From: Segatella copri
Lineage (GTDB): Bacteria > Bacteroidota > Bacteroidia > Bacteroidales > Bacteroidaceae
Length of the DNA stretch: 64,000 nt
NCBI RefSeq assembly: GCF_019249655.2
Contig: NZ_CP137557.1
Location: forward strand, 2,079,001 to 2,143,000
Direction: 5' to 3'
Made by a program: the position numbers and the translations under genes
In this document: positions 25,618 through 64,000 of the stretch, in pieces
Layout: each line of letters begins with the position of its first letter
How positions within the stretch are numbered: the stretch's first letter is position 1
The notes under the pieces: model-generated
What the model saw: only the letters and a program-made list of their open reading frames with translations
Told to the model about the DNA's origin: nothing
Databases searched by the model: none

Positions 25618-25760
25618 TGATGTGAAAAGACATCTGTTCTTGATGTGAAAAGATATCAGTTCTAGACTCAAAAAATATCTAGCCTTAAGGGAAAAAATAT
25701 CTAGCCTTAAGGCAAAATATATTTTCCCTTAAGGGTAAATATTCCTAGCCTTAAGGCTAA
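25618..25760. repeat. Two 23-bp tandem units and four CCTTAAGG palindromes
   Basis: Tandem TGATGTGAAAAGA-type units occupy 25618-25640 and 25641-25663. CCTTAAGG palindromes follow at 25683, 25705, 25727 and 25749, separated by A/T-rich AAATAT spacers. The same motif recurs at 63661-63710. Confidence 0.7.
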
Positions 25761-25767
25761 ATAAAAT

Positions 25768-25810
25768 AAGCCTTCAGGAGATGCCGCTTTCTTACGGCTC
25801 CTGAAGGCTT
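25768..25810 (-). terminator. Terminator of the first ABC-F gene
   Basis: 13-bp perfect stem AAGCCTTCAGGAG / CTCCTGAAGGCTT with a 17-nt loop, followed on the minus strand by TTATTTTATTT. Confidence 0.75.
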
Positions 25811-27530: not shown

Positions 27531-27861
27531 TTCAAGTTTCGCAAGTAGCATCTACCGTCCCCGAAGGGGGCGAATGTGAATAACCGCGGGTGGAATGACC
27601 GAAGGGAATGTAACCTGCGGATAGTGACAGATACTCTCTTATCGTCCCCGAAGGGGGCGAACAGGAGCAAGACTGGATGTGGTTCGCCCCCTTTGGGGAC
27701 GCTTTCTCCCTACTATTGGTTGTCCGCAGGTTTCATGACCTTCGGTCATTCCACCAGCGGTTATTGAAAGTTGGCCCCCTTCGGGGACCGGAGGTCATTC
27801 CACCAGCGATTATTGAAAGTTGGCCCCCTTCGGGGACCGGAGGTTACTTGCGAAACTTGAA
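27531..27861. repeat. Family-2 composite palindrome, copy 1
   Basis: 331 bp bounded by 17-bp perfect terminal inverted repeats (TTCAAGTTTCGCAAGTA and its complement). Two inverted homologous arms carry CGTCCCCGAAGGGGGCGAA units and GGTGGAATGACCGAAGG. The right arm has an extra internal duplication of about 50 bp (27744-27842 region). It starts 44 nt upstream of the ABC-F ATG. Confidence 0.9.
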
Positions 27862-27993: not shown

Positions 27994-28014
27994 ATCTGAT
28001 GTTTTTGTTCTTTT

Positions 28015-28157
28015 CAGAGCTTCTTGAATCCCTTTTGAAAGATTTTCTTTCAGGGCTTCTTGAATCCCCTTTTGAAAGATTTTCTTTCAGGGCTTCTTGA
28101 ATCCCCTTTGAAAGATTTTCTTTCAGGGCTTCTTGAATCCCCCCTTGAAAGATTTCT
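28015..28157. repeat. Four 36-37-bp tandem repeats after the discoidin lipoprotein gene
   Basis: Units start at 28015, 28051, 28088 and 28124. Each has GGGCTTCTTGAATCCCC followed by TTTTGAAAGATTTTCTTTCA, the second half a small hairpin. There are no spacers, so it is not CRISPR. The last unit reaches the stop codon of the gene. Confidence 0.9.
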
Positions 28158-55457: not shown

Positions 55458-57491
55458 ATGAAAATGAAGTACATTCTTCCGATGATGATGCTCGCTGCCA
55501 TGCCTTTGGCTGCTGACGCTCAGAACAAATCGGGACTTGTCATGAGCAATCTTGACAAGACAGCCAAGCCGGCTGATGATTTCTACCAGTTTGCCACAGG
55601 CGGATGGCAGAAGAGCCACCCACTGCCTGCTGCCTACAGCCGATATGGCAGTTTCGACAAGCTCACAGAAGACAACAACAAACGTATCAACTCAATCCTT
55701 GCAGAACTCGAGAAGAAGACCTACAAGGAAGGAACCATCGAGAGAAAACTCTCTGATTTCTACAAGATGGCCCTCGATGCCGACCGCCGCAACAAGGAAG
55801 GCATCGCCCCAGTGAAGCCTCTGCTCGCAGAACTCGCTGCAGCACAGACTAAGGCTGATTTGCAGAAACTGCAAATCAAGTATGCTGCCCTGGGTCTCGG
55901 CGTGGATTACGGTTCTTACTTCGCAGCCGACGAGAAGAACGTAACCATGAACATCTTCAATGTGCTCCAGGGCGGCTTGACCCTCGGTGCCAAGGATTAT
56001 TATCTCAACAACGATGCTGCCACAGTAGCTATCCGTGAGGCATACAAGAAGTACATCGCCCAGATGTTCCAGCTCTACGGATTCTCTGCTGCCGATGCTC
56101 AGAAGAAGGCTGAGAAGGTATTCCTCCACGAAACCAATCTCGCCCTCATCTCAAAGAGCCGCACCGAACTGCGCGACCCTCAGGCAAACTATAACAAGAT
56201 GACCCTGAAGGAGTTCAAGGAGAACTATCCTAACATTCCGCTGGAGGCACTTGCCAACGCTGAGGGCATCAAGAGCGAGTATATCCAGCAGATGGTGGTA
56301 GGTCAGCCTGCTTTCCTCGCCGGATACGATAAGATTTCTGCTGCCGAAAACGCCGAGACCTTGAAGGCGTTGATGGAGTGGGGCGTTATCTGCAATTCAT
56401 GCTCATACCTGAGCGACGATATCCGCATGGCAAACTTCGATTTCTTCGGCAAGACCATGAGCGGCCGTCAGGAGGATCACCCATTGTGGAAGCGTGCCAC
56501 AGCGCAGGTAGAGGCTCAGATGGGCGAGGCACTCGGAAGAATCTACTGCAAGAAATTCTTCCCTGAGAGTTCTAAGAAGATGATGGAGACGCTGGTGAAG
56601 AACCTGCAGATTAGTCTCGGTCAGCGCATCGACGCTCAGAAATGGATGAGCGCTGAAACCAAGGCTGCAGCCCACGACAAGCTCAGCAAGTTCTACGTGA
56701 AGATTGGTTATCCAAAGCAGTGGACCGACTACAGCAAGCTGACCATCGACCCATCCAAGAGTTTCTACGAGAACGTATTGGTGTGCCGTAAGTTCCGTGC
56801 CGACAAGATGATAGCCGAGAAGGCAGGTAAGCCAGTGGATAAGGAAGAGTGGTTCATGACTCCTCAGACCGTGAACGCATATTACAACCCAACCACCAAC
56901 GAAATCTGCTTCCCAGCCGGTATTCTTCAGTATCCATTCTTTGATGCCAAGGCCGACGAGGCATTCAACTATGGTGCCATCGGTGTGGTAATCGGTCATG
57001 AGATGACCCACGGCTTCGACGATCAGGGTCGCCAGTATGATGCCAGCGGTAACCTGAAGGATTGGTGGACGCCAGCTGATGCCGAGGGTTTCAACAAGCG
57101 TGCGGATATGTATGCTGATTTCTTCAGCAACATCAAGGTATTGCCTGATTTGAATGCCAACGGGCGTTTCACTCTGGGTGAGAACCTTGCCGACCACGGC
57201 GGTTTGATGGTATCCTTCAATGCCTTCAAGAATGCGACAGCCAAGAAGCCATTGAAGAACAAGGACGGTTTCACAGCCGACCAGCGTTTCTTCCTCGCCT
57301 ATGCCGGTGTTTGGGGTCAGAACATCACCGAAAAGGAGATTCGCAACCGTGTGAAGAACGATCCTCATGCCCTTGGTAAGTGGCGTGTTAACGGAGCTCT
57401 CCCTCACATCGATGCCTGGTATGAGGCATTCGGCGTAAAGCAGGGCGACAAGATGTTCATTCCAAAGAACAATCGTTTGGAGCTTTGGTAA
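55458..57491 (+). CDS. pepO: M13-family (neprilysin/PepO) metallopeptidase, exported
   Basis: 677 aa. Signal peptide (YILPMMMLAAMPLAADAQ), N-terminal M13 domain (PADDFYQFATGGWQKSHPLP onwards) and the catalytic domain with zinc motif VIGHEMTHGFDD (HExxH), NAYYNPTTNEICFPAGILQ substrate loop and third ligand ENLADHGGL (ExxxD). The C-terminus ends in FIPKNNRLELW, close to the usual family Trp end. Cleaves oligopeptides in the periplasm or at the surface. A family-2 repeat begins right after the stop codon. Confidence 0.94.
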   Translation: MKMKYILPMMMLAAMPLAADAQNKSGLVMSNLDKTAKPADDFYQFATGGWQKSHPLPAAYSRYGSFDKLTEDNNKRINSILAELEKKTYKEGTIERKLSDFYKMALDADRRNKEGIAPVKPLLAELAAAQTKADLQKLQIKYAALGLGVDYGSYFAADEKNVTMNIFNVLQGGLTLGAKDYYLNNDAATVAIREAYKKYIAQMFQLYGFSAADAQKKAEKVFLHETNLALISKSRTELRDPQANYNKMTLKEFKENYPNIPLEALANAEGIKSEYIQQMVVGQPAFLAGYDKISAAENAETLKALMEWGVICNSCSYLSDDIRMANFDFFGKTMSGRQEDHPLWKRATAQVEAQMGEALGRIYCKKFFPESSKKMMETLVKNLQISLGQRIDAQKWMSAETKAAAHDKLSKFYVKIGYPKQWTDYSKLTIDPSKSFYENVLVCRKFRADKMIAEKAGKPVDKEEWFMTPQTVNAYYNPTTNEICFPAGILQYPFFDAKADEAFNYGAIGVVIGHEMTHGFDDQGRQYDASGNLKDWWTPADAEGFNKRADMYADFFSNIKVLPDLNANGRFTLGENLADHGGLMVSFNAFKNATAKKPLKNKDGFTADQRFFLAYAGVWGQNITEKEIRNRVKNDPHALGKWRVNGALPHIDAWYEAFGVKQGDKMFIPKNNRLELW

Positions 57492-57495
57492 TTCC

Positions 57496-57632
57496 GTCCC
57501 CGAAGGGGGCGAACTTCCAATAACCGCTGGTGGAATGACCGAAGGGAATGAAACCTGCGGATAGCAAACTCATCCACTCAATCGTCCCCGAAGGGGGCGA
57601 ACAGGAGTAAGATAGGTATTGTTCGCCCCCCC
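57496..57632. repeat. Family-2 copy 4, left part, interrupted by the IS
   Basis: GTCCCCGAAGGGGGCGAA, ACCGCTGGTGGAATGACCG and a second GTCCCCGAAGGGGGCGAA, then GTTCGCCCCC where the insertion sequence begins. The outer terminal repeat is missing on this side. Confidence 0.85.
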
Positions 57633-59660
57633 AGCCCGTCCGAGAACGGCCGTTTTGGGGTGTATCATAGAGGGCAGAACCGCTATCACGACTCCACCTA
57701 AGTCCCTCTAAGGGCATATCTTTTTTCATCTTAAAATTTTAGTTTATGTTAAACAATTCGTCATAAGGGCTTAAAATGGCCGATATGAACACTAATAGAG
57801 CGTGTTTTTCGATGGTATTGATCCCTACAGGTCATTATCCAAGAGAAGCAATCAAAGCAGGTACACCTTTGAGAGATATGGCACGACGAAGGTTATAAGA
57901 TAGGCAAAAGAGACCCATCTCAGCAGTTACTTTCAGTTTGCCTTTCAGTAAAAAGTAGTATTGCCCAAGTGCTCGCTTCATGGTTCCAAAAGGATGCTCG
58001 GAGAGGCATTTGCGATTGTCCATCTTGTTCTGATCTAGATGTAAAACGTAACGGACAACCTTCTTCACGATCTTCATTCTTGGAGGTTTTGGCTTGTCCT
58101 TATTCTCTTCTTTGAGTTGCTTGCGTTTTGCTTCGGTTGCCTTTATCAAGGTGTCTTTGTTGAAGTCTGCCTCCTTGAACTTCTGGATGGTACACTTGCA
58201 CTTGCATTTTTTACATGCAAGCTTGTTGCAATAGCGGATCATACCGTTTCTTTTGATAGACTTTTGCCTCAGGATTTCTCCTTGCGGACAATAGACAAGA
58301 TTGCGTTCGGCATCCCTCACGAAGTATCCTTCAAGAGCCTTGGCACGCATCTGCCCGGGAGTCATCTTCAGTACAGCAGACTCTGCTACATCAGAAGTGT
58401 ACTCCTTGACCTCTACAATCTGTGCATCGGTTAAAAAATCCTTGTAGGCTTCCGGTATGACTGCAGCTTCAAGACATGCCTTCAAATCTTCTGGATTAGT
58501 ACTTGACTTTTGTTCGTCAGTTATGGTAGCTTCGTTATAGTCAAACTGAACCTGCTCCGTGCAGCTGCCATCACGTTGGATGACATTTGGTACGATACCA
58601 TTAGCCAATGCATCTGCATGATCCTCGGGACACTCGTACCCCTTGTCTGCAGTTGATTCAAGAACGTCAACACCATAATCGGCTTTCACCTCAGATGCTA
58701 CGCTTGTAAGCTGACCATGGTCTGTTGGACTGTTGGTTACCAGGAAGCCTGCTATCATATGGCTCTCCGCATCAACTGCAGTTTGCACATTATAACCGAC
58801 ACAAAAGCCTTCGTTGGCTTTCATTAGTCGGGAATCAGGATCGGTTAAGGAAATCTGGCTTTCACCACTTTTCTCAAGTGTATCACGGTATCCCTCATAG
58901 CGTTCCTTGCGCTCCTTGCAAACATCAAGCTTACGTTGCAACTCATCTTTAGAGAGCCTGCGTCCTTCCTCATGATCGTATGCTTCAAGTTCTTCCATAT
59001 AGATTGAAATATGTTCATCAAGACGCTTGATTCGGTCATCGAGTTTGCTTAGAGTAAGGTTGTTGTCTTTAGCATTTACAGCCTTAAACTTGCTTCCATC
59101 AATAGAGATGTACGACTTGGAAAAGAGCTTCAGTCCCATACAAAACTTGTTGAACTCTTTAAAAACTTTAGTAATAGCCTTCTTGTTGTCCTTGCGGAAA
59201 TCGGAGATTGTACGAAAGTCAGGAGTCAGCTTGTTGAGCAGCCACATTACCTCTACGTTACACTTGCACTCACGAGCAAGTTTGCGAGAGGAACGTACCT
59301 GATAGAAGTAACCATAAATATAGAGTTTGAGGAGATCGCGAGGATCATATCCAGGAGTACCTGTCTCTGCAGGAGTACTGCGGACGAATCCCAGTTCATC
59401 CATTTTGAGATTATCGACAAAAGCATCAAACAAGCGAACAGGGGCGTCAGCCTCTACATACTCGTCAATGCAATCAGGGAAAAGAACCCTCTGTCGTCTA
59501 TCTTGTCCTTTTTTATATGCCATATCTTTCTTGTTTTTTACTACAAAGATACATAAAATAATTGAGAATCAAGAAGATACGAAGTTAATTAACTATAAAG
59601 AGCAAAAGAAAAATGCCCAATTCAGTTGTTTGCTTCCCTAATTAAGTTTTCGGACGGCCT
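57633..59660. mobile_element. IS1182-like insertion sequence (~2.03 kb)
   Basis: Ends are imperfect inverted repeats AGCCCGTCCGAGAAC (57633-57647) and GTTTTCGGACGGCCT (59646-59660), 13 of 15 complementary. One transposase gene lies on the minus strand. Flanking C-runs (57626-57632 and 59661-59665) could be a short target duplication, but homopolymers make its length uncertain. It looks intact. Confidence 0.8.
57835..59523 (-). CDS. IS1182-family transposase
   Basis: 562-aa DDE transposase. The N-terminal domain (VLFPDCIDEYVEADAPVRLFDAFVD) leads into the DUF772-type region (YDPRDLLKLYIYGYFYQVRSSRKLARECKCNVEVMWL). A DDE core follows with SYISIDGSKFKAVNAKDN (first Asp), YNVQTAVDAESHMI, ADKGYECPEDHADAL (second Asp) and a Cys cluster CNKLACKKCKCKC. 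The C-terminal LSEHPFGTMKRALGQYYFLLKGKLKVTAEMGL has the conserved Glu region. Full-length with no frameshift, so the element may be active. Confidence 0.92.
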   Translation of the reverse strand: MAYKKGQDRRQRVLFPDCIDEYVEADAPVRLFDAFVDNLKMDELGFVRSTPAETGTPGYDPRDLLKLYIYGYFYQVRSSRKLARECKCNVEVMWLLNKLTPDFRTISDFRKDNKKAITKVFKEFNKFCMGLKLFSKSYISIDGSKFKAVNAKDNNLTLSKLDDRIKRLDEHISIYMEELEAYDHEEGRRLSKDELQRKLDVCKERKERYEGYRDTLEKSGESQISLTDPDSRLMKANEGFCVGYNVQTAVDAESHMIAGFLVTNSPTDHGQLTSVASEVKADYGVDVLESTADKGYECPEDHADALANGIVPNVIQRDGSCTEQVQFDYNEATITDEQKSSTNPEDLKACLEAAVIPEAYKDFLTDAQIVEVKEYTSDVAESAVLKMTPGQMRAKALEGYFVRDAERNLVYCPQGEILRQKSIKRNGMIRYCNKLACKKCKCKCTIQKFKEADFNKDTLIKATEAKRKQLKEENKDKPKPPRMKIVKKVVRYVLHLDQNKMDNRKCLSEHPFGTMKRALGQYYFLLKGKLKVTAEMGLFCLSYNLRRAISLKGVPALIASLG

Positions 59661-59778
59661 CCCCCTTGGGGACGCATTCTCTCTCGATACTTGTCCGCAG
59701 GTTTCATTCCCTTCGGTCATTCCACCTGCGGTTATTGAGAGTTGGCCCCCTTCGGGGACCGTAAGTAACAAGTAAAAC
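59661..59778. repeat. Family-2 copy 4, right part
   Basis: Continues with CCCCCTTGGGGACGC, TGTCCGCAGGTTTCATTCC, CGGTCATTCCACC and GTTGGCCCCCTTCGGGGACC. The outer end (AGTAACAAGTAAAACT) is a degraded version of the usual terminal repeat. Confidence 0.85.
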
Positions 59779-59817
59779 TAGATTCAGATATTTTTCTAGA
59801 AAAAAGTTTCCGAAAAA

Positions 59818-59849
59818 TTTGGTAGTTTCAAAAAAAAGCAGTACCTTTG
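59818..59849 (+). promoter_or_regulatory. Promoter of tRNA-Arg
   Basis: TTTG (59818-59821), 20-nt spacer, TACCTTTG (59842-59849). The tRNA begins 28 nt downstream. Confidence 0.75.
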
Positions 59850-59876
59850 CACTCGCTTAACAAAATTAGCAAGGAT

Positions 59877-59951
59877 GGTTCCGTAGCTCAGTTGGATTAG
59901 AGCAACAGCCTTCTAAGCTGTGGGTCTTGGGTTCGAACCCCAACGGAATCA
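59877..59951 (+). tRNA. tRNA-Arg (anticodon UCU)
   Basis: 75 nt. Acceptor GGTTCCG/CGGAATC (one G-T pair), D-arm GCTC/GAGC, anticodon stem ACAGC/GCTGT with loop CTTCTAA (anticodon TCT), T-arm TTGGG/CCCAA with TTCGAAC. Discriminator A; CCA is not encoded. Reads AGA. Confidence 0.96.
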
Positions 59952-59953
59952 CG

Positions 59954-59994
59954 AAAAAAGGTGGACTAGTCATAACGACCAGTCCACCTTTTTT
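59954..59994 (+). terminator. Terminator of tRNA-Arg
   Basis: 18-bp stem (one mismatch) AAAAAAGGTGGACTAGTC / GACCAGTCCACCTTTTTT, loop 5 nt, then more T. It probably also ends minus-strand transcription from the smalltalk/HU genes. Confidence 0.9.
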
Positions 59995-60017
59995 TTCTAC
60001 ATATCCATCTATCCGTT

Positions 60018-60110
60018 TCACATGCAGCTCGTTACGCCCAGCGTGGCGCCGATGGCTGTGAGAAGCGAAATCAAAACCTTAAGTACAAGTTTCCAGTTTT
60101 CTTTCGACAT
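60018..60110 (-). CDS. Smalltalk-type 30-aa hydrophobic small protein
   Basis: Minus-strand frame of 30 codons: MSKENWKLVLKVLISLLTA followed by IGATLGVTSCM, stop TGA at 60018. The start with a basic/Trp segment, one hydrophobic stretch and the ending GVTSCM match the Bacteroidota smalltalk family of very small proteins that sit next to HU-like genes. It lies 76 nt downstream of the HU-like gene on the same strand. A membrane peptide or lipopeptide-like role is suggested by the terminal Cys; function unknown. Confidence 0.85.
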   Translation of the reverse strand: MSKENWKLVLKVLISLLTAIGATLGVTSCM

Positions 60111-60186
60111 AGGCTTTTCCGTTTAGTGATTGATAATTACGTGAATAGAACAGGAGAGAGGAGCCCCCGCTCTGGGGGGCTGTCTT

Positions 60187-60795
60187 CTAGATGGTTACAT
60201 CCGCAGAGTCGCCATTACCCTCGTCCTTGCCGGTCTGCGAACCGCCGCCAGTGGTATCCCCGGTAGTGCCGCCAGTAGTGCCGCCAGTGGTGCCGCCTGC
60301 TGTGTCACCAGTAGTGCCGCCGTTCTCCTTACCGTCGCCCTCAGTATCCTCCACATCATTCGAATCCTTGGAAGATACGTTCTTCACAATCTTGCCGTTG
60401 CGGTCGTAGCAGGTGATGCTGATGCTCGTGTTGGCAAGCTCCTGCTTAATCTCCACACTCGGGGTGAAAATCACGCGGCGCAGGGTGATGAGCTTGCTGC
60501 TCACCTCATCCACCGACTTCACCGCGTCGGCACGCAGACCGAAACGCATGGTGCCCAACCCCGGGATAGCCACCGAGTGACCCTCTGTGGCCCATGCCTT
60601 CAGCACCTCGCTCAAGGCTGAGTAGGCCACCTTCATCACGGCGGTGGTCAGTCCGCCACGGATGGCAGCCTCCTGAATCACCTTCTCCGGGGTGAGCTTG
60701 TTGTAGAACATAGGCTGCATCACGTACATGTACACATCCTTCTCCTTACTCAAATAAGCGATCTTGCGCTCCACTGCTTTTACATTAATTCCCAT
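60187..60795 (-). CDS. HU-like DNA-binding protein with Gly/Thr-repeat tail
   Basis: 202 aa. Residues about 1-125 resemble the Bacteroidota HU-like (HU-HIG/HU-CCDC81 type) domain (MQPMFYNKLTPEKVIQEAAIRGGLT, AIPGLGTMRFGLRADAVKSVDEVSS). An acidic linker (SKDSNDVEDTEGDGKENGG) follows, then a tail of GGTT/GDTT repeats (about 163-187) encoded by 12-bp imperfect repeats. Probably binds DNA; the tail length may vary by slippage. Same strand as the smalltalk gene and the Rep-like gene. Confidence 0.85.
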   Translation of the reverse strand: MGINVKAVERKIAYLSKEKDVYMYVMQPMFYNKLTPEKVIQEAAIRGGLTTAVMKVAYSALSEVLKAWATEGHSVAIPGLGTMRFGLRADAVKSVDEVSSKLITLRRVIFTPSVEIKQELANTSISITCYDRNGKIVKNVSSKDSNDVEDTEGDGKENGGTTGDTAGGTTGGTTGGTTGDTTGGGSQTGKDEGNGDSADVTI

Positions 60796-60949
60796 AACAT
60801 TTTAAGTTTTTAGTTCAATAAAATTGCAGATTCCTTTGTATCTCTGCAAGCCGTTGTGTTTCAACGACAATGCAAAGATACAAAATTTGGAGCCCAAAAA
60901 CAAGGAATGTTCGCCAGTTCATCAGAAAAACATGAATATCAAGCGTAGA

Positions 60950-62011
60950 TTATTTCTTCTTCAGTAGATTATCCAGACATTTCACGATATAGGCCGGAGG
61001 CGTATCCACCTGATGCTTCGCCATCGCCCTATAGGCTGCTTTGAAACACTGATTCACGGGGTCCCTGTCTTCCAGAGTGAGGCGTTCGCTCAAGTCATAC
61101 GCCACTTTGGAGTTTACATTCCAGGGAGCTTCGGTAAGTACTTTTCTGAGCTTAAATTTCATGAATACCAACTCCTGCCTATCTGCAGGCTTCAGCGCAT
61201 TCTCATCCTCGTTGCGAAACTTGATTTCAAATATCACAAGACTCCCATAAGTTCCAACCACCTGGTTGCGGCAGGTGGCTATCGTATGAATGACAATGTA
61301 ATCAAGAAGATTATAATTGTAAGCATTCTTGATTTCCTCCTCAGCCACGGACAACTGGAAATACTCCAGATTCCCCGTGCCTCGATACACCGTTTTGCTG
61401 GTGAGCAGAGACAGAATCTCGGCAGGACGAAACTTCACGTAACCCTGCTTCAGGCGACTCTCGCTCAGAAGATAAAGACAGCGGGCCGACTGGTGGCGGA
61501 ACGACTCATAAACCTGAGGCAACACCTTGAAATAACCCAAATCCAAGGCGAAATAATACTTCGCCACCTCTATCGGCATCTCCAGAATAACTCTCTTCTC
61601 CTGACCCACCTTGTGATCCCTCACGTAGCGCAGAAGATAGGCAAACTCCCTGTAACACAGGGTAGGAGAGGAACCCGAAGAGTCGGTATAAGGGATGCTC
61701 ACCGGCTTCTTGCCGATGTCCTTCAACGCCTTCTCCAGGTTGCGGTAATGCGACTTGCAAGGCTCCAATGCCTTGTAAGGAACTTCCAGGCGCAGCATGT
61801 TGTCAATGCGCTCAAAAGCGCTGAAATCCATTTCGCCATGGTGAGCCTTCTGGCTGATAGCCAGCCTGATCTCCTTCTGGTCAAACACATCAAGTCTGAA
61901 CAGATACTTCTGTTCTTGCGGGCTGTAGCTGTGGTGCAGGGCGCAATGAGTACCAAGCTCTGTGGCTTCGGTAATAGTAAAATAGTTGTCTATTCTTTTC
62001 ATTGTCCTCAT
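60950..62011 (-). CDS. Rep_3/RepB-like winged-helix replication initiator (putative)
   Basis: 353 aa, no signal peptide. The layout resembles plasmid initiators with two winged-helix domains: an N-terminal region (QKYLFRLDVFDQKEIRLAIS, FERIDNMLRLEVPYKAL, LEKALKDIGKKPVSI) and a middle block (YFKVLPQVYESFRHQSARCLYLLSESR, KFRPAEILSLL, EYFQLSVAEEEIKNAY) typical of the RLYelL-type helix of Rep_3. The family call is from pattern recognition without a search. In-frame ATGs at 62011 and 62002 are both possible. Upstream lie large dyads and iteron-like repeats. Confidence 0.6.
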   Translation of the reverse strand: MRTMKRIDNYFTITEATELGTHCALHHSYSPQEQKYLFRLDVFDQKEIRLAISQKAHHGEMDFSAFERIDNMLRLEVPYKALEPCKSHYRNLEKALKDIGKKPVSIPYTDSSGSSPTLCYREFAYLLRYVRDHKVGQEKRVILEMPIEVAKYYFALDLGYFKVLPQVYESFRHQSARCLYLLSESRLKQGYVKFRPAEILSLLTSKTVYRGTGNLEYFQLSVAEEEIKNAYNYNLLDYIVIHTIATCRNQVVGTYGSLVIFEIKFRNEDENALKPADRQELVFMKFKLRKVLTEAPWNVNSKVAYDLSERLTLEDRDPVNQCFKAAYRAMAKHQVDTPPAYIVKCLDNLLKKK

Positions 62012-62055
62012 AATTAGGATAGTTTATATAAAGTGGGGGTGGCAATGAAAAAAAT

Positions 62056-62259
62056 CATGGGGATACGACGAGCGAAAGTATGCACCAGTGTTATTCGGCA
62101 TTTTTTTTCTGGTACTTATCCAAAAATCGTCGAATCAGACCAGAAATCTTCGCTTGTCGCACCCCCATGTCATATCATGAGTTTGCGCACGAATGCTCTA
62201 GTCTGAATTTGATTTTTGGATACCCTAGGATAAGGAATTATTGCCGAACCTTTTCCTAG
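62056..62259. repeat. Nested inverted repeats upstream of the Rep-like gene
   Basis: 62056-62076 pairs with 62149-62169 (about 18 of 21). Inside, TTTCTGGT (62107-62114) pairs with ACCAGAAA (62139-62146). ATCCAAAAATC (62119-62129) is complementary to GATTTTTGGAT (62212-62222). CTAGGATAAGG (62225-62235) pairs with CCTTTTCCTAG (62249-62259, one mismatch). No coding frame is evident here; the stretch between 62260 and 62549 shows no clear feature. Confidence 0.65.
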
Positions 62260-62549
62260 AGGCTTTTGCTTCAAATTCAGAGATAAACTCTGCAACGTTG
62301 GCAGCCTATTGATAGCCTGCCCTATGTCTGCCAATGGTCTTTTACAACCAAAGTGCGCTGCAAAGATAAATATTTATTTTGAAACAAACAAGTTTTTACC
62401 AGTTTTTTTTCATTTTTACCGAAAAAAACTTCGAAACCGTCATGACCATCTTTCTCTCTTTTTTCTCTATATATCATATAATCATAATTCTAGAAGCGCA
62501 ATTTTCGCTGATAACCGTCTGATTGATAGGTAGATATATTTTTCTCCTC

Positions 62550-62716
62550 ATATCAGATGTAACAGTCCCTCCCGGGAATCTGATCAAAGGTAAGGGTTTC
62601 CACTGTCGGCAGGTAATACTTTTTCCGCTTTTCTTATCCGGGGTAACTATCCATAAATTTCTCTTATCAGATGTAACCAGCTTAGGAAAATCTTCAACTC
62701 TCTTATCAAAAGCAAC
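62550..62716 (+). repeat. Five iteron-like 14-bp direct repeats
   Basis: Pattern TTATCnnnnGTAAC with variants: ATATCAGATGTAAC (62550), TGATCAAAGGTAAG (62581), TTATCCGGGGTAAC (62634), TTATCAGATGTAAC (62664), TTATCAAAAGCAAC (62703). The last two extend into CAGcTtAGGAAA. They lie between the Rep-like gene and the amidase promoter. Confidence 0.55.
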
Positions 62717-62803
62717 CAGTTAAGGAAACGTAAAAAACAAGCCCCGCTTGCGGAAATCGTCGGGAACCGCCGCATAGCGTCAGTTCTTCAAAAACGGATT
62801 TTG

Positions 62804-62811
62804 TAACTTTG
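62804..62811 (+). promoter_or_regulatory. -7 element of the amidase gene
   Basis: TAACTTTG, 53 nt before the ATG; no good -33. Confidence 0.5.
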
Positions 62812-62863
62812 CAGTGTTCAAACCAATGGACATCGTAGATTATTAACTTTAAAATGCAAGATT

Positions 62864-63304
62864 ATGGCTAGATTGATTACAATGATTGTGGTTCACTGCA
62901 GCGCTACCCGCTGCAACCAACCTTACCCAGTGCAGCAACTCTTTCACGACCATGTGGAGGTGAACCACTGGCGCTACATCGGCTACCACTTCTACATCAC
63001 CAGAAGTGGCAGAGTGGAGACCACCCGACCTCTGGAGAGAACGGGCGCACATGCCAAGGGGCACAATGCCCACAGCATCGGCATCTGCTACGAGGGAGGA
63101 CTCGACGAGCAGGGACAGATAGCCGACACCCGCACCGAGGAGCAGAAGAAGGCGATGGCGAAACTCATCGTGCAACTGAAGCAGCAGTTTCCTACCATCC
63201 ACAAGGTGCTGGGCCATCGCGACCTGCCAGGTGTGCAGAAAGCATGCCCATGCTTCGATGCCACCACGCTTCAGCCACTGTTACATCTGAAATGTAAATC
63301 TTAA
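62864..63304 (+). CDS. N-acetylmuramoyl-L-alanine amidase (Amidase_2 family)
   Basis: 146 aa, a single T7-lysozyme-like/PGRP catalytic domain. Zinc ligands appear in IVVHCSAT (His about 10), the mid region YHFYITRSGRVETTRPLERTGAHAKGHN, and VLGHRDLPGVQKACPCFDA (His and Cys near 122-137). It cleaves the amide bond between MurNAc and L-Ala of peptidoglycan. It has no signal peptide, so export would need another route, as for phage endolysins. The gene recurs with HU-like and smalltalk genes in Bacteroidota. Confidence 0.9.
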   Translation: MARLITMIVVHCSATRCNQPYPVQQLFHDHVEVNHWRYIGYHFYITRSGRVETTRPLERTGAHAKGHNAHSIGICYEGGLDEQGQIADTRTEEQKKAMAKLIVQLKQQFPTIHKVLGHRDLPGVQKACPCFDATTLQPLLHLKCKS

Positions 63305-63316
63305 AGAATGTATCTT

Positions 63317-63351
63317 TTTGATACAAGTAACGGAATTTTTATGTAACTTTG
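63317..63351 (+). promoter_or_regulatory. Promoter of the DUF4248 gene
   Basis: TTTG (63317-63320) and TAACTTTG (63344-63351), spacer 23 nt, slightly long. The TTTG is the loop end of a small TGTATC/GATACA hairpin. Confidence 0.5.
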
Positions 63352-63389
63352 CCATCAGAACAGAATCAATAACTAAAAACTTAAACTAG

Positions 63390-63638
63390 ATGAGTGTTAC
63401 AAAACAACATTTCGTAGAACGTAGAATGATGGGCAAGCAGGAGCTTGCTCATCTCTACTTCCCCCACAGCAAGCAGAATGGGCATGCGGCAAGGGATAAG
63501 TTCATGGATTGGGTAAAGGGATGTCATCCGCTTTATGCCAAACTGCTGGAACTGGGCTACACGCCATCGGTTCATGATTTCTCGCCCAAGATGGTGGATT
63601 ACATCTTCTACTATCTGGGGGAGCCCGACGGGGTATGA
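63390..63638 (+). CDS. DUF4248-type small protein
   Basis: 82 aa: KQHFVERRMMGKQELAHLYFPHSK...ARDKFMDWVKGCHPLYAKLLELGYTPSVHDFSPKMVDYIFYYLGEP. The MxKxELAxxYFP start with the following A..KFM.WI-like segment and the late FSPKMV..I..YLGEP match DUF4248, known only from Bacteroidota, where it resembles a small helix-turn-helix-like protein. Function unknown. It has its own promoter between the amidase and DUF5675 genes. Confidence 0.82.
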   Translation: MSVTKQHFVERRMMGKQELAHLYFPHSKQNGHAARDKFMDWVKGCHPLYAKLLELGYTPSVHDFSPKMVDYIFYYLGEPDGV

Positions 63639-63660
63639 TTCCCCCTTTCTTGAAGGCTAA

Positions 63661-63710
63661 GAATATTTATCCTTAAGGCAAAAAATATTTTCCCTTAAGG
63701 CTAAATATTT
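63661..63710. repeat. CCTTAAGG palindrome repeats, second site
   Basis: CCTTAAGG at 63671 and 63693, each followed or preceded by AAATATTT, as in the cluster at 25671-25760, 38 kb away. Confidence 0.65.
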
Positions 63711-63744
63711 CATTCGTACTGAAAACAATTAAAAGAGTAAGATC

Positions 63745-64000
63745 ATGGAGATTAAAATCATTCGTTTTGGTAGATATCATCATGCCGTAAGTGGCAGGTT
63801 GCTGATAGATGGTCAGCACGTTTGCGATACCTTGGAGCAGGATACCGGCAGTCTGCCCGAGGGGGAGTATGTCATGTGCCGCAACAAGGCATCGGCATTA
63901 CCTTATTATATATATAGTGGAAAGGAGGATATAGGCAGCGGTTTGGAGCAGAAAGCAGATTGTGCTAAGGAGCAGAAATCAGATTGTGTTCCGGAGGAGA
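63745..64000 (+). CDS. DUF5675-like protein, 5' part
   Basis: First 85 codons; the gene runs off the right edge. MEIKIIRFGRYHHAVSGRLLIDGQHVCDTLEQDTGSLPEGEY resembles the N-terminus of DUF5675 (G.L.ID....C.TLE....IP.G.Y), a small domain often coded next to amidases in Bacteroidota accessory regions. After residue 66 the product has a repeated GLEQKADCAKEQKSDC-like stretch not expected in the family, which may be a tandem duplication within the gene. No signal peptide. Confidence 0.6.
   Translation, partial: MEIKIIRFGRYHHAVSGRLLIDGQHVCDTLEQDTGSLPEGEYVMCRNKASALPYYIYSGKEDIGSGLEQKADCAKEQKSDCVPEE

Follow-up and report, generated by a model that had tools for sequence, protein, structure and literature searches.

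A recurring Bacteroidales gene module in Segatella copri and candidate 22-bp arrays for its HU-HIG protein

We analysed a 64,000-nucleotide stretch of Segatella copri DNA (contig NZ_CP137557.1, positions 2,079,001 to 2,143,000; the window), whose end, at positions 59877-64000, carries a cassette of six genes beside a tRNA-Arg gene. These six genes belong to a module that recurs in Bacteroidales beyond chance. With a probability of roughly 0.45, we interpret it as a once mobile and now resident module composed of an HU-HIG DNA-binding protein, the small peptide smalltalk, an endolysin-type hydrolase, DUF4248 and one interchangeable replication gene, in which the HU protein would recognise phased arrays of short palindromes. 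Throughout, G-numbers are genomes of the genus (G001 is S. copri Indica) and L-numbers are loci, L002 being the S. copri Indica counterpart of the window cassette.

Recurrence of the gene set and of 22-bp arrays

An earlier note on this DNA, made from the letters alone, had grouped the six genes into one cassette by co-location. A scan of genome contigs with an alignment of the amidase gave at least 559 confirmed candidates, and in the best 80 of these, with loci cut by a contig end scored as misses, both the set and its order recurred. HU-HIG lies within 3.5 kb of the amidase at 67/80 loci, smalltalk within 1.5 kb at 60/80 and DUF4248 within 5 kb at 48/80, and at 54 of the 80 HU, smalltalk and amidase follow one another in that order on one strand. 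A replication gene, identified from cluster representatives, is also nearby at 54 loci (VapE at 19, AAA_25 with DUF6371 at 18, DUF3987 at 10, Rep_3 at 2 and mixed or single labels at 5), and none was found at the other 26; since a BT4734-like domain is common to VapE and DUF3987 proteins, the mixed labels may be one gene. Polysaccharide genes lie near the amidase at 35/80 loci; at some of these the module lies inside the cluster, and at L009, L031 and L069 the module is placed among capsule-type genes of the opposite strand.

Among 100 genomes of the genus, DUF4248 is found in 36 (35 over the cut-off) and the amidase in 42. Both occur in 30, DUF4248 alone in 6, the amidase alone in 12 and neither in 52 (Fisher p 4e-10, uncorrected for kinship), and S. 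copri Indica has 7 copies of each. Of 21 further HU loci, 4 have an M15 peptidase near HU, three with the genes arranged as M15, HU, smalltalk, and HU-smalltalk-amidase was also found on records labelled plasmids. The same note had suggested a reduced mobile unit or a lysis/defence module. A mobile, lysis-bearing origin is indeed plausible because the recurring unit has interchangeable replication genes and an endolysin-type hydrolase, a make-up that points to a formerly mobile replicon, now vertically inherited here. The defence part was not supported: PADLOC, run on the six cassette proteins with the L002 copy standing in for DUF5675, gave no defence-system match.

In the textbook view, HU is a general, nearly non-specific DNA packer. 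Upstream of HU-HIG genes we often observed intergenic tandem arrays with a period of 22 bp. Array rows of 19-24 bp reach 64 per 100 kb at 0-1 kb upstream, a count that contains duplicates of some places, whereas the remaining 500-bp bins hold 0 to 14 per 100 kb. For 86 HU genes thinned at 85% identity, lag analysis of the upstream kilobases peaked at exactly 22, seen in 28/86 compared with 4/175 control pieces, with harmonics at 44 and 66, and a stricter setting (lags 21-23) gave 19/86 and 5/175. In four genomes, the period was present at 22/53 long HU genes, 0/6 short HU genes and 1/46 background pieces; this comparison used 21 of the 24 G001 matches (L003, itself array-bearing, and two more were omitted), 11/11 in G025, 5/7 in G017 and 22/30 in G004. 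G004 has arrays at HU genes and no DUF4248 match, and arrays of 18-24 bp also occur at 27/50 loci with replication genes other than Rep_3.

The array units have an excess of dyad symmetry (5.93 of 9 pairs, compared to 5.34 in shuffled units; standard error 0.13, 44 units). The period is conserved and the unit sequence differs by locus: in sets that contain duplicates of some places, unit similarity was 10.2-10.9 of 22 for HU pairs below 50% identity, near the chance value of 10.4, 10.5-12.7 for pairs at 50 to 80%, and ∼17 only above 80%. Co-divergence of HU and array sequence was rejected on these values.

We then compared units with those of distal arrays in 400 kb of S. copri Indica and 385 kb of G004. 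A unit in common with an HU-linked or cassette array of the same genome was seen for 8/37 distal arrays (5/29 in G004; 3/8 in S. copri Indica, all three with the cassette unit), while comparison with the HU-linked and cassette units of the other genome gave 0/37 and shuffles gave 0. Units are known for just 12 G001 arrays (including L003 and the cassette) and 15/22 G004 HU loci, and missing partners are therefore expected. Because the period is kept without the sequence, HU-HIG linkage holds even at places where searches gave no DUF4248 or replication genes, and distal arrays share units with those of their own genome, array binding by HU-HIG would be the simplest account, and we infer such binding from these sequence patterns.

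Two further dispersed sets of arrays were observed. On contig C18 of G004 (L362-L379), TRF reported 34 rows with a 22-bp period in 345 kb, some of which overlap; no other period between 15 and 30 gave more than 2. Nearly all of the 34 are intergenic, most lie away from HU-HIG genes, and their units are diverse. S. copri Indica has a second dispersed 22-bp family, with core CGCACAACAGCTG, at G001:C1 181789 and 385735, for which comparison with HU-linked units gave none at threshold.

The cassette in the window

The features in the window are as follows.

59877..59952, + strand: tRNA-Arg (TCT), a neighbour judged to be outside the module
60018..60110, - strand: smalltalk / DUF6486, a 30-aa hydrophobic peptide (NF033879 E 4e-12; PF20096 E 3e-9)
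60187..60795, - strand: HU-HIG DNA-binding protein, 202 aa, with a Gly/Thr-rich C-terminus (PF18291 E 2.6e-13)
60950..62011, - strand: predicted divergent Rep_3 replication initiator, 353 aa (profile-profile match to Rep_3 relatives)
62012..62863: divergent Rep/amidase gap of 852 bp, with GTAAC boxes at 62559, 62643, 62673 and 62803 (motif count against shuffles)
62864..63304, + strand: single-domain Amidase_2 of endolysin type, 146 aa (PF01510 E 5e-17; phrog_822 lysis amidase E 6e-49)
63390..63638, + strand: DUF4248, 82 aa, predicted all-helical (PF14053 E 2.8e-22)
63643..63708: 22-bp tandem array (repeat search) with the core palindrome CCTTAAGG at 63671 and 63693 and a degenerate copy at 63649
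63745..64000, + strand: DUF5675 gene, cut by the window end (24.1 bits; the ortholog at L002:11046-11462 scores 33.8 bits)
25669..25778: distal 22-bp array (repeat search) with the same core CCTTAAGG at 25683, 25705, 25727 and 25749

Smalltalk, HU-HIG and Rep_3 thus lie on the reverse strand, followed by the gap and then by amidase, DUF4248 and DUF5675 on the forward strand. All six gene calls of the earlier note stand, Rep_3 and DUF5675 needing evidence beyond a direct match. In profile searches of the window proteins, smalltalk (45.7 against 24.7 bits for NF033879), HU-HIG (50.6 against 26.2 bits for PF18291), the amidase and DUF4248 exceeded the curated cut-offs. The truncated DUF5675 gene scored under its cut-off of 26.7 bits and the S. 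copri Indica ortholog over it. An Rfam scan of 57000-64000 returned nothing but the tRNA at gathering score. The large non-coding spaces full of repeats described earlier were confirmed in part, in the 852-bp gap with its GTAAC boxes; the palindromic array at 63643-63708 is an addition to that description.

PF18291 is not exclusive to HU-HIG, as the ordinary HU of E. coli and others also pass its cut-off, and the match of the window protein to NCBIfam HU_rel stays under the cut-off of that model. S. copri Indica has 24 PF18291 matches; a small number of these are HU genes that are short or broken. The window protein has its domain and multi-copy occurrence in common with the HU-HIG proteins of Bacteroidetes, whereas linked 22-bp arrays and same-unit distal arrays are features of the present loci. 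Burroughs et al. 2017 reportedly named HU-HIG and discussed its gene neighbourhoods in a paper on the HU superfamily. An open literature search returned no paper on the cassette neighbourhood or the arrays, although the neighbourhood is perhaps partly described in that work, and to our knowledge neither arrays linked to HU-HIG nor same-unit distal arrays have been reported.

Within the 64 kb there are six exact copies of the palindrome CCTTAAGG, always in the two arrays and at exact 22-bp steps (25683-25749 and 63671-63693), and L002 has this core in its DUF4248/DUF5675 gap as well. Pairs at 22-bp spacing number 34 genome-wide in S. copri Indica, one each in G073 and G098, and zero in 197 of the other 199 genomes; a reversed control pattern gave none in the genus genomes.

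The gene at 60950-62011 matched Pfam weakly when searched directly (E 0.027, 15.3 bits against a cut-off of 22.4). Aligned with hhalign, the profile of its family matched Rep_3 relatives at 99.7% over 329 columns (E 3e-26), and the relatives so joined carry PF01051 in 11/12 and PF21205 in 9/12. By this WH1/WH2 homology to PF01051/PF21205, the gene is a predicted divergent Rep_3 initiator. It has 27 relatives at E <= 0.001. Among 200 genus genomes, the only strong match is in S. copri Indica (E 6e-198), with 17 others at 1e-5 to 2e-17, and in the plasmid collection it matched a single entry, a "replication initiation protein" on a 568-kb Prevotella nigrescens record (23%, E 9e-5). No match was obtained in phage records or viral contigs, nor in an initial scan of genome contigs with Rep. 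The predicted structure (pLDDT 63) is too poor for use and gave no fold match at E <= 0.001. Rep_3 homology also connects the window protein with the Rep_3 protein from the second chromosome of Prevotella intermedia; the accessible text reports no iteron-like repeats near that Rep_3 gene (PMC4755523).

The gap next to the Rep gene was searched for repeats. Iterons of Rep_3 proteins are ∼17-22 bp long and lie beside the rep gene. The four GTAAC boxes of the window gap were attained in 1/1000 shuffles, and the equivalent gap of L002 has six on that strand, attained in 0/1000. CTTATCAGATGTAAC, tried as the window iteron, had 5 matches, attained in 3/100 shuffles, and was dropped as weak. Canonical Rep_3 modules (L003, mirrored, L256 and L262) have amidase, smalltalk and HU on one strand and, across a gap, Rep and DUF4248 on the other, with 22-bp direct-repeat arrays in the HU/Rep gap (TRF 136, 121 and 100; 0/100 shuffles each); the Rep gaps of the window and of L002 contain no 22-bp array. 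From these three loci, compared with the upstream kilobase of three VapE loci, we had first accepted iterons as a feature of Rep_3 modules only. This was rejected because the three VapE loci carry arrays nearer HU, so that the control had looked in the wrong place, and because of the arrays at 27/50 loci with other replication genes. Iteron plasmids of the Rep_3 kind thus share Rep_3 homology with the window and, in the canonical modules, 22-bp direct repeats, but here the genes are chromosomal, arrays also lie beside modules without Rep_3, and the window's own Rep gap has none.

The window smalltalk ends in VTSCM, which is lipobox-like, and all 76/76 smalltalk open reading frames, of which that of L008 is possibly false, have a Cys within the last ten residues, and the residue before it is S, A, G, D or C, mostly Ser or Ala. 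This terminal Cys reads as a lipobox after a hydrophobic signal stretch, and mature smalltalk is therefore predicted to comprise a lipidated Cys and no more than a few further residues. The amidase consists of a lone Amidase_2 domain beginning near its first conserved motif, appears by reading of the sequence to be without a signal peptide, and is kin to phage lysis proteins, with matches in 1497/50,697 phage records at E <= 1e-15. Smalltalk and the amidase may act jointly on the wall. Phage holin-endolysin cassettes resemble this arrangement in having a single-domain amidase without a signal peptide which, in most of the related loci, adjoins a tiny hydrophobic peptide; here, however, smalltalk carries a lipobox-like Cys at its terminus and matches nothing in PHROGs, HU belongs to the unit, and a role in lysis is putative.

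The DUF4248 structure model is all-helical (pLDDT 79.5) and had no match in the PDB at E <= 0.001; on this basis a winged helix was set aside, without being settled. The only functional hint for DUF4248 met in our literature search is the P. gingivalis gene PG_RS02100, deletion of which, according to the accessible part of the report, alters pigmentation and oxidative tolerance (PMC6231650). DUF4248 and smalltalk genes are also present in tables of an iron-response study, as far as these are accessible (PMC10434189).

Comparison with the S. copri Indica copy

Relative to the canonical order, the window copy has amidase and Rep exchanged; it is a rearranged form of the Rep_3 subtype, with an arrangement shared by L002. 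The S. copri Indica cassette adjoins the same left-flank genes and has the same gene order. The window alone has an IS1182 element and tRNA-Arg, and S. copri Indica alone has a nuclease-like gene and ∼7 kb more. These ∼7 kb (L002 1441-8149), between HU and Rep, contain Rpn-type nuclease-like and toxin-antitoxin-like genes; these labels, like those of M13 peptidase, valS, MazG, C11, GYF, DUF1016, Rpn and HigBA, were assigned by eye and not by family scan.

Twenty other genus genomes had no cassette gene in the stretch fetched beside the left-flank peptidase gene (0.4-14 kb, shortest at contig ends), so the cassette is seemingly not a block fixed across the whole genus. A clean empty site did not emerge from this comparison, and in G017 the two flanks are ∼142 kb apart. 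Compared with S. copri Indica, synonymous divergence (dS) of the cassette genes is 0.74-1.42, and 2.5 for smalltalk over 30 codons, with 0.87 for the one flank gene measured, and pairwise dN/dS (ratio of nonsynonymous to synonymous divergence) is in the range 0.09-0.30 across the six genes, of which DUF5675 was covered in part. Given flank-like dS and low dN/dS, an old resident kept by selection fits better than a recent arrival, and the window copy is thus probably a resident chromosomal module inherited vertically at this locus.

An inverted repeat of 66 bp (94%) at 57496-57561 / 59694-59759 brackets the IS1182-type transposase gene (57835-59523). Sequence resembling it is tandemly repeated with a 49-bp period at 27744-27844, and the repeat may therefore belong to a REP-like family. 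A tandem 36-bp repeat with ∼4 copies and 95% matches lies at 28012-28155.

Array-binding HU-HIG and competing explanations

In the mechanism that we favour, HU-HIG would assemble on the helically phased palindromic array (CCTTAAGG here) in its own cassette and on distant arrays, and would there bend or bridge DNA. Rep_3 would act from the repeat-bearing gap upstream of its own gene, and smalltalk would carry a lipid on its terminal Cys, sit in the inner membrane and help bring the cytoplasmic amidase to the wall. Several observations weigh against this reading. The window array lies ∼2.9 kb upstream of HU, between DUF4248 and DUF5675; directly upstream of the window HU there is no 22-bp period, and upstream of its S. 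copri Indica ortholog none reaches threshold. The CCTTAAGG correlation is confined to one lineage (G001 and the window), 31/53 long HU genes over the four genomes lack an array (G025 has 0/9 with one), and 29/37 distal arrays have no matching unit. In viral contigs, moreover, related amidase loci are without HU in 61/70 cases and without smalltalk in 69/70 by the profiles used, and a phage origin of the HU-smalltalk-amidase trio is therefore not supported.

The main rival holds that the 22-bp arrays are operators or iterons of another protein, such as Rep_3, the primase or DUF4248, or lineage-specific REP-type intergenic repeats that are denser near HU-HIG genes by happenstance. It draws on the adjacency of the window array to DUF4248, on the arrays in the HU/Rep gap of the canonical Rep_3 modules, on the distal arrays that match no HU-linked or cassette unit and on the 29 distal arrays in 385 kb of G004. 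Arrays, however, also precede HU-HIG genes among metabolic or housekeeping neighbours with no replication-profile match nearby, occur in a genome without a DUF4248 match and at more than half of the 50 non-Rep_3 replication loci, and concentrate 0-1 kb upstream of HU; we regard this account as less likely than array binding by HU-HIG. An active element of the phage-satellite or plasmid kind, in which Rep_3 or a primase amplifies local DNA and smalltalk and the amidase lyse the cell for release, is improbable. Interchangeable replication genes beside an endolysin-type gene, the M15 peptidase near HU at 4/21 further loci and the trio on plasmid-labelled records would suit it, but the six genes include no integrase, capsid or mobilisation gene (one tyrosine-recombinase profile was negative in the window, the rest of which was not searched for integrase, capsid or mobilisation genes), synteny with S. 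copri Indica is vertical with flank-like dS, the window order parts the amidase from smalltalk, and Rep has no match in phage records or viral contigs.

Still less probable is a regulator of capsule loci, with HU-HIG and DUF4248 governing surface polysaccharide genes and the remaining genes as passengers. The module is sometimes embedded among polysaccharide genes, but 45/80 loci have no such gene within reach and the capsule-type profiles used found nothing in the window. In P. gingivalis, the gene for the HU protein PG0121 lies beside the capsule operon, which PG0121 supports, yet PG0121 is described as closely similar to the HU of E. coli rather than as an HU-HIG protein (PMC3969353). A reduced island integrated at the tRNA, the linkage that the earlier note had proposed, is very improbable: the tRNA gene is adjacent, but tRNA-Arg is missing at the syntenic S. 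copri Indica cassette (its ortholog lies elsewhere, at G001:C1:172192), the tRNA 3' end is not repeated within the window, and one profile found no tyrosine recombinase there. Chance co-location of accessory genes has next to nothing in its favour, its sole point being that the genes of the window stand in an unusual order, against a set and order recurrent in the best 80 loci, an identical order in S. copri Indica and co-occurrence across genomes.

Returning to array-binding HU-HIG, a wider and more tentative proposal is that Bacteroidales have parallel site-specific HU systems. Each HU-HIG paralog would have its own palindrome of 22-bp period, near its gene or in its cassette and dispersed between genes, with a sequence that turns over; some of these pairs would have been joined with replication initiators and endolysin-smalltalk, and CCTTAAGG would be the palindrome in Segatella copri and its kin. 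The dispersed nucleoid sites parS and matS, with their cognate binders ParB and MatP, would work alike, as one chromosomal DNA-binding gene with dispersed cognate palindromes, whereas here the sites are tandem arrays of 22-bp period, several HU paralogs occur per genome, and binding by HU is predicted only.

If this is true, HU relatives with their own phased palindromic arrays would give common gut bacteria a new means of marking and organising their chromosomes, and the unexplained multiplication of HU-HIG genes would become testable. Smalltalk, DUF4248 and the cytoplasmic endolysin, now annotation orphans, would likewise gain a role or, failing that, a partner.

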